In this document: piece by piece, positions 6,074 through 9,768 of the stretch | Layout: each line of letters opens with the position of its first letter | Numbering within the stretch: position 1 is the stretch's first letter | Assembly: GCA_028288485.1 (NCBI GenBank) | Contig: JAQBNO010000107.1 | Span: 1 to 44,162, forward strand | Length of the DNA stretch: 44,162 nt | Reading direction: 5' to 3' | From: Segetibacter sp. | GTDB lineage: Bacteria > Bacteroidota > Bacteroidia > Chitinophagales > Chitinophagaceae | Notes under the pieces: generated by a model | Databases searched by the model: none | Told to the model about the DNA's origin: nothing | Seen by the model: only the letters and a program-made list of their open reading frames with translations | Translations under genes and position numbers: made by a program

Positions 6074-7429
6074 TTACCTATTCACTCCCCCGTCTCTTCT
6101 TTCATGAGCTTTATGATTAAGTTCTTTAATTGTATGCTCGTTGTTATTGCTTTCAGCAAATTTAGAAACCGCTATTCTTTGCGAGCCATAAATACCGGTG
6201 TGGCCGCTGAAATAATAAGCGGTGAAGCAGGCCACCGCATAATACAACACATTTTCAGATCCAAACAATTCGACCCCCATTATTGTGCAAGCTAACGGAG
6301 TATTTGTTGCACCGGCAAAGACAGCAATGAAACCAAGCCCTGCAAATAAGTCAACAGGCGAACCGCTGACAGCCGCCAATGTATTACCTAATGTAGCGCC
6401 AATAAAAAACAGGGGTGTTACTTCTCCACCTTTGAAGCCGGTACTCAGTGTTATTGCCGTTAGCAGCAATTTCCACAACCAGCTCCAGGTAGCAGCTCCG
6501 TTTGGTTCAAAAGCAGAGACAATGCTTACGCCACCGCCAGGATTGGTAACCCCTAAGCCGAGATAATCAAAGGTGCCGAGTGCATAGCTTATAGCAATTA
6601 CTGCAATTCCTCCAAATACAGGAGCAAGCCATTTATTTTGTATGTAGTTAGCTAAAGTACTTTTTATGAAATGCGATGTTTGCGCAAAAAGGTATCCTGC
6701 CAGTCCAAACGCTGCACCTGCTATAATCACCTTCAACAAAAGCCACAAATCAAAAGTTATAAGAGGCATTGACGGTACTGCATTTCCGGCAAAAGCAATA
6801 CTATAATGCGTATGATGAATGCCCCACGAAGAACAGGTGATATCGGCTATAACACTTGCAATAAAGCAAGGGATAAGCGCATCATATTTTATTCTGCCTA
6901 TTGCCAGCACTTCCATTGCGAATATTGCACCAGCGACCGGTGTTCCGAAGACTGCACCAAAGCCCGCCGCCATACCACACATTAGCAGTATTCGTTTGTC
7001 CCGATGCTTTAGCTTGTACCATCCGGAAAATAAAGAGGCCACGCTTCCGCCCATTTGAACCGCTGTTCCTTCACGGCCTGCCGAGCCACCAAACAAGTGT
7101 GTAATGATAGTGCTTATTAAAACGAGGGGCGCCATACGTGTTGGTATACCCCCACCAGGTTTATGAATTTCATCGAGGATCAGGTTATTACCAGCTTCTG
7201 CATTCTTACCCCAGGTTCTATATAGAAAGGTGATCAGTAAGCCAGCCAAAGGAAGCAGGAAAATAAGCCAAAGGTTTTGCCACCTGGCAACAGTTGCGAA
7301 ATCTAAAAGCCATAGAAAAAGAGCAACCAAAGAACCTACAGAAACCGATACGGGAACAATCAGTGTGGTCCAATACAATAAATGCTTTGCAATTTTTACC
7401 TGTTCAAAAGAATAGCGGTATTTATTCAT
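6074..7429 (-). CDS. CLC-family antiporter, probably fluoride-specific (CLC-F type)
   Basis: The 451-residue membrane protein has the CLC landmarks: [14 protein letters not shown] with gating glutamate E120, [14 protein letters not shown] (~160-174) and [18 protein letters not shown]. The first ion-binding motif, GSGIP in chloride CLCs, is replaced by [10 protein letters not shown] (80-89), which I recognise from the fluoride/proton-antiporting CLC-F branch. The upstream leader reads as a fluoride riboswitch, which strongly supports fluoride export as the role. It would sit in the inner membrane and protect against fluoride. The last ~25 residues are charged and poorly conserved. Family is certain; fluoride specificity is inferred. 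Confidence 0.93.
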
Positions 7430-7472
7430 CCTACAAATAGATTTATTGAGTAATACGATTACTATTTGTAGG
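7430..7472 (-). promoter_or_regulatory. Start-codon hairpin: probable expression platform of the fluoride riboswitch
   Basis: A perfect 11-bp inverted repeat (CCTACAAATAG reading from 7472 on the minus strand, and CTATTTGTAGG ending at 7430) abuts the ATG at 7429. The 5' arm overlaps the conserved CUAC end of the aptamer, so aptamer folding and hairpin formation are mutually exclusive. There is no poly-U, so control is probably at translation initiation. Confidence 0.75.
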
Positions 7473-7528
7473 CGCCATTAGTCCCGGAAGGTCGCGGGGC
7501 GGTTGGGTCAGGAAGACACCATTTCCTG
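7465..7528 (-). promoter_or_regulatory. Fluoride riboswitch aptamer (crcB motif)
   Basis: Read 5'->3' on the minus strand, the leader shows AGGAAAUGGUGUCUUCCU (stem AGGA/UCCU with the AUGG element), then CCCAACCGCC, a variable stem, GGGACUAAUGGCGCC and UACA. The order AUGGnnU, AACCGC, (U)AAUG, GCC, UAC matches the crcB/fluoride aptamer, in which GGUGU pairs with GCGCC. UAAUG replaces the common UGAUG. It begins at the predicted transcription start and precedes a CLC gene, a classic target of this riboswitch class. Confidence 0.88.
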
Positions 7529-7537
7529 TTGATGTTG

Positions 7538-7566
7538 CAAACTTAGTTTTTATTTATAAATCCAAA
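7538..7566 (-). promoter_or_regulatory. Promoter of the riboswitch-CLC transcript
   Basis: On the minus strand, TTTG (7566-7563), a 17-base spacer and TAAGTTTG (7545-7538) give a perfect match to the Bacteroidota TTTG/TAnnTTTG promoter. The predicted start, around 7530, is just before the aptamer. Confidence 0.7.
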
Positions 7567-7621: not shown

Positions 7622-8320
7622 TTACAGCTCGGTAGTAATCATTAGTTGTGCAACATTACTGATTGCAGTGCCGTCTTTCTCTTTCTGTCTCCAATGCATA
7701 TACCCGATCTCCGTATCTATCTTTTTACTCCACCTATATCCTAAAGAAATATAAGACCTGTTTTGGTCGAAAAAGTGGTTGTTCACTTTCTCTTTATGTT
7801 GAATGTTTACGAATAACTCATTTTGCAGGTTGGTGTAGAGGCCTTTGCTAAAATCTTTATTTGCATATAAAGGAATTTGAAAACCCAGGAGACCACGAAA
7901 ACGTTGCGAAAAATCAAAAGCCGCCTCTTCCTTTACAAACCGCTGCTCTAACCTCAACCTTGCAGTTAATTCTGTTCGTTTCAAGTTGCGGTTGTAGCGG
8001 TATTGCTGATAGATCCTATGTTCAAGCTGAAAATCGAATTTACTGATTGCCTCCTCCCAATCACCTTTATACGCATAGCCGAGGGCGACAGCATGTTCAT
8101 CATTAATATTATACGCTAATGCGCCCCGTAACAAAACCGTTTCAATCCGTTTCCATTCGTTAGATGAACGGAACTGAATATCAGCTAAGCCATCCCATTT
8201 CTTTGAAAGCTTCTGGGTGTGTGTCAAAAACAACCAGCCTTTATTTTCGGTTGATTGAGCATTGCCACTTGAATGAAGAATCAAAGAGGCAAGTATGATC
8301 AAAACATGGTTCTCCCTCAT
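7622..8320 (-). CDS. DUF2490 outer-membrane-like protein
   Basis: The 232-residue protein has a signal peptide (to about NAQS) followed by alternating beta-strand segments such as ETVLLRGALAYNINDEHAVALGYAYKG and TARLRLEQRF. It ends in IGYMHWRQKEKDG and AQLMITTEL. This is the DUF2490 pattern, thought to form an outer-membrane beta-barrel of unknown function. Its ATG follows the stop codon of the sorbosone-dehydrogenase-like gene with no gap (TAGATG), so the two are translationally coupled. Confidence 0.8.
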   Translation of the reverse strand: MRENHVLIILASLILHSSGNAQSTENKGWLFLTHTQKLSKKWDGLADIQFRSSNEWKRIETVLLRGALAYNINDEHAVALGYAYKGDWEEAISKFDFQLEHRIYQQYRYNRNLKRTELTARLRLEQRFVKEEAAFDFSQRFRGLLGFQIPLYANKDFSKGLYTNLQNELFVNIQHKEKVNNHFFDQNRSYISLGYRWSKKIDTEIGYMHWRQKEKDGTAISNVAQLMITTEL

Positions 8321-9664
8321 CTATTGCTTCTGGTTTGCGCTTACTCTCCAAATCGTATTACCTGCATCGTCTGCAACCAGCATTGCATCGCTTGTAAATG
8401 CAACACCCACTGGCCTGCCATACGCGTCTGTTTCATGGCCGGTTAAAAACCCGGTTAAAAAGTCTTCCTCTTTGCCCGACGGTTTGCCATTGCTGAAAGG
8501 CACAAATCCAACTTTATAACCTACAAAACTTGACCTGTTCCAGGAGCCGTGTTCGCCAATAAAAGCACCCCCTTTAAACTTGCCGGGAAAGATGTTTTGT
8601 GCATCGAAGGCAAGGCCAAGCGCAGCTGCATGGGCCGACAAAGCAACGTCGGGAACGATCGCACTTTTTACTAACTCAGGCCGTTGCTGGTCTTTCATGC
8701 GCGGGTCTTCGTGCTGCCCGAAATAAGAATAAGGCCAGCCATAGAAACCTCCATCCTTTACACTGGTTATATAATCAGGAACCAGGTCATCGCCTAACTG
8801 ATCTCTTTCATTCACAGCTACCCAAAGCGTATTTGTGCCGGGAGCATAACCCATTCCCTGTGGATTTCGTAAACCGCCTGCATAAATCCTTTCTCCGGAG
8901 CCGTCGGGATTTATTTCTAAGATGGCCGCTCTTTTTACTTCATGTTCCATTCCATTCTCACCCACATTACTACCAGATCCTACTGTTACAAATATCTTCT
9001 TACCATCCTTAGACGCAAAAAGATTTCTTGTCCAATGATTATTATAACCTCCTGCAGGTAACGGCAGTATTTGTTTTCCCTGTGCAGTCATTTTAGTTTG
9101 TCCCGGCTGGTAAGGGTATGCAAGCACACCATCTGTGTTGGCTACATAAAAAGTATTTCCGATAATGGTCATACCAAAAGGTTGATTCAGGTCTTCCAGA
9201 AAGACCGTTTTTAGTTCAGGCGTGCCATCATGATCGGCATCTCTTAACAAGGTGATCCTGTCAGCACTTCCATTGGTATTGCCGGCTTTCGACTTGCCCG
9301 TCACTACTGATTTTATTTGCTTTTTCAGGTTTTTTTCTGTGCTCGCTTCTGAAACAAAGATGTCGCCGTTTGGGGCAACGTAGATCCAGCGGGGATTATC
9401 TAAATCACCGGCAAACTTAGTGACCGTAAAACCTGCAGGAGCTATTGGCGTTTTGCCGTCGGGCCAACCAATAACATTGCTAAGTTTTGTAGATGACCTG
9501 GAAGCAAAGGGAGCAGGTAAATCTACTGTTTGCCCGGTGCCAGTAGCTATTGTAGCTTCCTTGCCTGCGTTTTCTGCTTTTTTTTCTTCTTCTGACGGTC
9601 CGTTTTTGCACGCTGATATGGTACAAACAGAGAGGATAATTGTGGTAAATAACTTCATGTTCAT
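8321..9664 (-). CDS. PQQ-dependent sugar (L-sorbosone) dehydrogenase-like lipoprotein
   Basis: The protein has about 447 residues with lipobox TISAC followed by KNG, so it is a periplasm-facing or outer-membrane lipoprotein. A six-bladed glucose/sorbosone dehydrogenase propeller follows: FAGDLDNPRWIYVAPNGDIF, GGLRNPQGMGYAP, VNERDQLGDDLVPDYITSV, GGFYGWPYSYFG and FIGEHGSWNRS. These are family signatures for a PQQ-dependent aldose or sugar-aldehyde dehydrogenase. Starts at 9664 (MNMKLF) or 9658 (MKLF) both keep the signal; a longer in-frame start at 9691 would spoil it. It is the first gene of a pair with the DUF2490 gene. Confidence 0.85.
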   Translation of the reverse strand: MNMKLFTTIILSVCTISACKNGPSEEEKKAENAGKEATIATGTGQTVDLPAPFASRSSTKLSNVIGWPDGKTPIAPAGFTVTKFAGDLDNPRWIYVAPNGDIFVSEASTEKNLKKQIKSVVTGKSKAGNTNGSADRITLLRDADHDGTPELKTVFLEDLNQPFGMTIIGNTFYVANTDGVLAYPYQPGQTKMTAQGKQILPLPAGGYNNHWTRNLFASKDGKKIFVTVGSGSNVGENGMEHEVKRAAILEINPDGSGERIYAGGLRNPQGMGYAPGTNTLWVAVNERDQLGDDLVPDYITSVKDGGFYGWPYSYFGQHEDPRMKDQQRPELVKSAIVPDVALSAHAAALGLAFDAQNIFPGKFKGGAFIGEHGSWNRSSFVGYKVGFVPFSNGKPSGKEEDFLTGFLTGHETDAYGRPVGVAFTSDAMLVADDAGNTIWRVSANQKQ

Positions 9665-9768
9665 TTTAATTGTTTTTGGTCCGGAATTCAAATTCCTGTA
9701 TTGCGGTTATTACTAACAACTTGTTGCTGTATTTTGTTTTAGAAAAATTGCTGCCACGAGAATCAATT

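Follow-up and report, generated by a model that had tools for sequence, protein, structure and literature searches.

How does a fluoride riboswitch control a gene whose start region offers no Shine-Dalgarno (SD) sequence to be hidden? This question is raised by the leader of an exporter gene in Segetibacter sp. (contig JAQBNO010000107.1), from which a stretch of 44,162 nt, referred to as the window, was analysed. In the usual account of translational riboswitches, it is the SD sequence that is hidden. Bacteroidetes, according to passages of PMC6847099 and PMC3155529, largely lack SD sequences. The features at issue, all on the minus strand of the window, are the following:

7566-7427, minus strand: leader, in the order promoter, aptamer, hairpin and ATG
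7538-7566, minus strand: promoter of the Bacteroidota type by its sequence, TTTG (7566-7563), N17 and TAAGTTTG (7545-7538)
7462-7535, minus strand: fluoride riboswitch aptamer RF01734 (cmscan), with P1 formed by CAGGAA (7528-7523) and UUCCUG (7514-7509)
7516-7520, minus strand: pseudoknot 5′ strand GGUGU, complementary to 7475-7471
7471-7475, minus strand: pseudoknot 3′ strand GCGCC, whose last two C (7472-7471) double as the outer pairs of the hairpin
7462-7472, minus strand: hairpin 5′ arm CCTACAAATAG (CCUACAAAUAG in RNA form), doubling as the aptamer tail, with covariation in 106 CLC leaders
7441-7461, minus strand: hairpin loop of 21 nt, by sequence
7430-7440, minus strand: hairpin 3′ arm CTATTTGTAGG (CUAUUUGUAGG in RNA form), running up to the AUG
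6074-7429, minus strand: CLC-F type fluoride/proton antiporter gene, 451 aa, with ATG at 7429-7427 and the motifs GNNLI and GREGT

The 451-aa protein matched Pfam Voltage_CLC (PF00654) with an E-value of 6.8e-76, and its closest PDB relative was 6d0j, a CLC-type fluoride/proton antiporter (E 7.4e-65), followed by two more entries of the same antiporter and then by the chloride antiporter ClcA 3ejz at 1.8e-8. GNN replacing the motif of the chloride type, together with GREGT, is what we take to be the signature of CLC-F, and the protein carries both GNNLI and GREGT. The gene encodes a CLC-F type antiporter, with fluoride transport as its predicted function. Its best 80 named relatives come from many Chitinophagaceae genera, including Lacibacter cauensis (80%) and Flavisolibacter nicotianae (78%), both within the group of family genomes compared below, and also from unnamed Bacteroidetes, other Bacteroidota, four Verrucomicrobiota and one Pseudomonadales record. 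One second CLC match was found in the genome, at a locus without a riboswitch, and a search of the genome for CrcB gave no match. The genes 5′ of the leader (7622-9691, minus strand) encode a DUF2490 protein and a GSDH-type sugar dehydrogenase-like protein, with no obvious link to fluoride.

The covariance model RF01734, whose gathering score is 34 bits, matched 7535-7462 over its full length (1-64) with a score of 44.2 bits and an E-value of 3.8e-9, and this was the single match detected in the genome. The conserved aptamer elements AUGG (7522-7519), AACCGC (7504-7499), UAAUG (7480-7476) and UAC (7470-7468) were located, as was a pseudoknot between the P1 loop (GGUGU, 7520-7516) and the 3′ strand (GCGCC, 7475-7471), which is of the kind described in passages of PMC11077080, includes two G-U pairs and is assigned by complementarity alone. 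The aptamer precedes a gene of the CLC-F type, and the leader contains a fluoride riboswitch aptamer whose binding of fluoride is itself predicted. The promoter conforms to the Bacteroidota consensus as given in part of PMC7366714. The initial annotation had proposed the ordered crcB aptamer elements with their GGUGU/GCGCC pairing, a TTTG-N17-TAAGTTTG promoter just 5′ of them and a perfect 11-bp hairpin that abuts the ATG and overlaps the aptamer UAC with its 5′ arm, and had named the Rfam model as a check; the model score bears out the first, the promoter is present at 7566-7538, and the hairpin not only exists but, as described below, recurs and co-varies in relatives.

The two arms of this hairpin (7472-7462 and 7440-7430) form 11 perfect base pairs, and the ATG at 7429-7427 follows without a gap. 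The 5′ arm contains the CCUAC tail of the aptamer, which makes hairpin and aptamer mutually exclusive by sequence; an arm that reaches the AUG and a CCUAC shared with the aptamer are what a translational riboswitch masking the start region would be expected to have. The hairpin is A-U rich, with a predicted energy of -11.8 kcal/mol, and the fold of the leader had a z-score of -2.74 against shuffled sequences, 2 of 200 shuffles being equally good. For comparison, 165 ORFs of at least 150 aa from the window and 20 further stretches of the same genome, with the first ATG taken as the start, were ranked by the length of their best perfect stem with an end no more than 6 nt from the start. The window gene ranked at the top with 11 bp, the runners-up had 10, 9 and 8 bp once each, and all the rest had 7 bp or less. 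A TPP riboswitch of the same genome was also inspected for a start hairpin, and the first long ORF begins 59 nt downstream of it.

We consider it highly probable that the leader works as a riboswitch which fluoride turns on, and that what it controls is translation of the CLC-F fluoride exporter. RNA polymerase would start just 5′ of the aptamer. Without fluoride, the aptamer 3′ tail CCUACAAAUAG would quit the pseudoknot and pair with CUAUUUGUAGG up to the AUG, and the helix would occupy the site needed by the small ribosomal subunit, so that initiation would be blocked; with fluoride bound, the aptamer would keep its CC and UAC, the hairpin could not fully close and the start region would be open. 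The target would be the start region itself, an SD sequence playing no part. We infer that the RNA binds fluoride, which way it switches, and that it acts on translation rather than on the RNA. In Bacillus cereus, the platform can disrupt the pseudoknot only once the A40-U48 linchpin of the apo RNA is broken (PMC11077080, in part); by analogy, the hairpin would zip up to the AUG in the absence of fluoride and be kept from doing so in its presence. Structure near the start is described to tune translation in Flavobacterium johnsoniae (a passage of PMC6847099), and SD pairing to aid initiation through 5′-UTR structure, with SD sequences generally missing in Bacteroidetes (a passage of PMC3155529); on that account, an A-U-rich hairpin may suffice.

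The arrangement was then compared across Chitinophagaceae. Of 394 family genomes, 130 had an RF01734 match at E ≤0.001, and in 122 of them it was above the cut-off; all 133 family places over the cut-off, the window included, made up the leader set, and 14 family and 12 wider matches below it were left out before counting. Assigned with five query proteins, the genes downstream of the 133 aptamers were 107 CLC, 16 CrcB, 5 MFS and 1 Na/H exchanger genes, with 4 unassigned. GREGT was present in 106 of the 107 CLC genes, and GNNL or GNNM in 101. The 107 CLC leaders are all distinct sequences; their start codons were picked by protein length, independently of the hairpin, with more than one candidate in 14. 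In 97 of the 107, the aptamer tail can form a stem of at least 6 bp with an arm that stops 0-6 nt short of the start, and the distance from arm to start was 0 nt in 27 and 1 nt in 37 of these. The ten exceptions comprised seven leaders without the outermost C-G pair (4-10 pairs kept), two with 5 bp and one (L127) whose start had been wrongly chosen, which was counted as a miss among the 107 and excluded from the sets of 106 leaders used for covariation and folding. Loop length varied from 13 to 150 nt (99 family leaders). A leader of the same genus (L087) has about 125 extra loop nucleotides and its start 157 nt past the aptamer, and the 11-nt arm still reaches the AUG; in that of Chitinophaga rupis (L211), with a similarly long loop, the arm stops 3 nt before the ATG. 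Within the loops, a tentative inner inverted repeat of at least 5 bp was seen in 58% of 99 cases (mean 4.8 against 4.0 in shuffled loops; only 26% conspicuous when taken singly). The promoter type recurs as well: TAnnTTTG lies 4-18 nt 5′ of the aptamer core in 87 of the 133 family leaders (mean of 2.4 in shuffles), and just 25 of these 87 also have a -33 TTTG or TTG at a suitable distance.

None of the 107 CLC leaders carries AGGAG, GGAGG or GAGGA at -18 to -5, and nine have an SD 4-mer there. In the genome sample, an SD 5-mer precedes 1 of the 165 ORFs, so that the earlier suggestion of start-region occlusion in a host with weak SD use agrees with both counts. Masking of an SD sequence as such was rejected as the class of the switch, with SD 5-mers in 0 of 107 leaders and a window arm that reads CUAUUUGUAGG. 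The sequence just before the start is atypical of the genome, the 3′ arm supplying U and G where other ORFs are A- and U-rich.

A different reading is that the hairpin acts on transcription, through an intrinsic or factor-dependent stop near the start codon that fluoride would prevent. A known transcriptional switch likewise overlaps its hairpin with the pseudoknot strand of the aptamer (PMC11077080, in part), Rho-type stops are conceivable, and U-tract-like platforms were scored, by a rough script, in 6 of 26 leaders from other classes of the phylum. The window hairpin is followed, however, by AUGAAUAAAUACC without a U run, which disfavours a transcription terminator there; the same rough script placed none of the 107 family CLC leaders in the U-tract class, the 8 of 133 family leaders so scored being others; and the arm is kept 0-6 nt from the start despite loop growth, a spacing that termination does not need. 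We therefore hold a transcriptional switch to be unlikely.

It is still less probable that the aptamer is genuine and the hairpin a roleless by-product of a conserved tail in an A+T-rich leader. The aptamer does constrain the 5′ arm, and related leaders are similar: in the 107 CLC leaders, arms swapped between leaders still formed a mean stem of 6.82 bp (sd 0.13, maximum of 300 swaps 7.20). Their own arms formed 8.65 bp, however, against 1.30 bp for shuffled ones. This swap control ignores the kinship of the leaders; since relatedness is thereby left in, a quick tree of 106 CLC proteins was added. At the fourth pair, the 106 leaders have A-U in 62, G-C in 28 and G-U in 16, whereas A-C occurs in none, and the tree requires no fewer than 21 substitutions on the 5′ side and 12 on the 3′ side. 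In independent pairs on well-supported branches, the partner at this pair co-moved in 3.8 of 10 and never in the opposite direction, a count too small for significance by itself and one in which unmatched changes are tolerated; pairs 5 and 6 had one to three changes only. The arms of the predicted hairpin co-vary with compensatory changes in the family, and the tight spacing to the start and the arms retained across a long loop insertion likewise speak against a by-product. A chance hairpin was ruled out by the swap and shuffle controls, the 165-ORF comparison and the covariation. Control of mRNA stability by the hairpin, through 5′-end cleavage or protection in place of or beside initiation control, is equally improbable, for although some riboswitches are known to act on decay (PMC12121620, in part), it explains neither the tight start-codon spacing nor the CrcB leaders whose arm contains the AUG.

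For the preferred translational switch, the folding of the 106 leaders was computed with a nested-only model, which cannot represent the pseudoknot. With the aptamer tail locked, the mean openness of positions -12 to -1 rose from 0.19 to 0.44 (0.007 for a control lock), with a gain of more than 0.1 in 83 of the 106 leaders and a loss in 8. The openness of the AUG itself fell from 0.61 to 0.45 with the tail locked, and in the window RNA the arm and AUG were still predicted to pair, with the coding sequence. The model thus backs switching only in part, and the AUG that the predicted lock does not open, together with the re-pairing of the window arm, is the main weakness of the mechanism. In all, the analysis bears out the initial interpretation, in which the freeing of the start codon by fluoride is the predicted part.

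How far the start-abutting form extends was assessed with a rough classifier, which mis-scored some leaders (L140, L158) and excluded L173 and L174, at 7 nt, by its limit. It sorted 133 leaders of the family, 19 belonging to the remaining families of its class and 26 belonging to the phylum's other classes. A start 0-6 nt after the arm and no SD was scored in 101 of 133, 8 of 19 and 1 of 26 leaders, respectively; a U-tract-like platform in 8, 3 (including the mis-scored L140) and 6; AGGAG within the arm in 2, 0 and 3; a start inside the arm in 7, 0 and 4; and another arrangement in 14, 8 and 11, with 1 family leader and 1 from the other classes stemless. By eye, the class leaders L140, L158, L173 and L174 resemble the start-abutting group. 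Because of these counts, a start directly behind the arm seems to characterise the family and part of its class, and not the aptamer itself. Within the class, L145 has an 8-codon ORF that begins at the hairpin and whose stop overlaps the next start (ATGA), which suggests translational coupling. Two other leaders, L164 and L165, have TATTGTAGGTG as the arm, and its end is overlapped by a GTG codon, possibly a GTG start within the hairpin arm.

In front of most CrcB genes of the family, the start codon appears to lie inside the arm. Twelve of 17 CrcB-type leaders (the 16 assigned and the truncated L010) have a 3′ arm with AUG-NNC-AGG, read as the start codon followed by codons two and three, and the predicted folds of these 12 pair the whole AUG in 8 cases, two of its bases in 3 and a single base in 1. 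In L004 and L024 the start is uncertain because an additional ATG directly follows the arm. The same arm occurs in the Na/H exchanger leader L056 and in the unassigned L103, and an equivalent AUG-in-arm arrangement in L171, outside the class.

In the leaders L047, L063, L120 and L026, the riboswitch hairpin and ATG are retained and followed by short ORFs of 47, 32, 35 and 2 codons, respectively. By eye, the short ORFs in L047 and L120 look like decayed CLC-F N-termini, and a crcB gene comes next in L047, L063 and L026. This looks like replacement of CLC-F by CrcB beneath one switch, perhaps with translational coupling. Five aptamers (L059, L065, L074, L083 and L100) precede MFS transporter genes, and four of these leaders fall outside the start-abutting group.

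A separate observation concerns Verrucomicrobiota. Four Opitutia loci (L190, L202, L206 and, at about 1138-1190, L257) have CLC-F genes without an RF01734 match and share a conserved element with sharp boundaries, GAGGCTTTACAG-N7-GAATCAAGCC, 17-19 nt 5′ of the likely ATG (three by eye). With further loci (L284-L291), a single copy of the element was found in each of 7 genomes, out of 273 in the order, and in the genome of L257, and it precedes an ORF with GREGT in 8 of 8 cases. An Rfam search with the element returned no family match, and it may regulate fluoride export as an element not recognised so far.

The fluoride platforms of Pseudomonas syringae and Burkholderia pseudomallei mask an SD sequence. 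These riboswitches share the aptamer class with the leader in the window and are translational, with termination unchanged by fluoride, according to passages of PMC13273304; the window leader differs in that no SD sequence was found and that the arm ends at the start codon. The covariation model in the same paper, as far as its section on the model goes, likewise joins the aptamer to a downstream hairpin, for which its authors see transcriptional and translational forms, whereas that section does not describe the start-abutting form; the string "Bacteroid-" occurs nowhere in the main text. In the B. cereus crcB switch, as parts of PMC11077080 describe it, the platform likewise competes for the pseudoknot at the aptamer 3′ end after the linchpin break, but it is an intrinsic terminator, and that of the window leader a start-codon hairpin without a U-tract. 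In the literature searched, mostly by title, abstract opening or passage, no description of a fluoride riboswitch platform in Bacteroidota turned up, nor of an SD-less start-abutting or start-embedding geometry kept in one lineage. Bacteroides TPP riboswitches, in a preprint by Costliow et al., reportedly control transcription or translation; they share the SD-poor phylum and the predicted translational control with the window leader and differ in ligand and aptamer.

The aptamer, the gene, translational control and a hairpin that follows the aptamer and is linked to its end are already known. Since translational fluoride riboswitches have precedents, what stands out is a platform that abuts the start without an SD sequence, together with how widely it has spread, a new platform variant of moderate interest. 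Chitinophagaceae and part of their class probably own an SD-free translational platform in which the aptamer tail masks the start, with the arm 0-6 nt before the start of CLC-F genes and, in most family CrcB leaders, AUG-NNC-AGG as the arm, a form that is also found in a few leaders of other classes. If this is true, the riboswitch would dictate the first amino acids of a protein in the CrcB form. A conserved and covarying start-region switch would offer a ligand-controlled system for the cost of structure at an SD-free start, with the tolerated distance already sampled by nature, from 0-6 nt to an AUG inside the arm and across loops of 13 to 150 nt.
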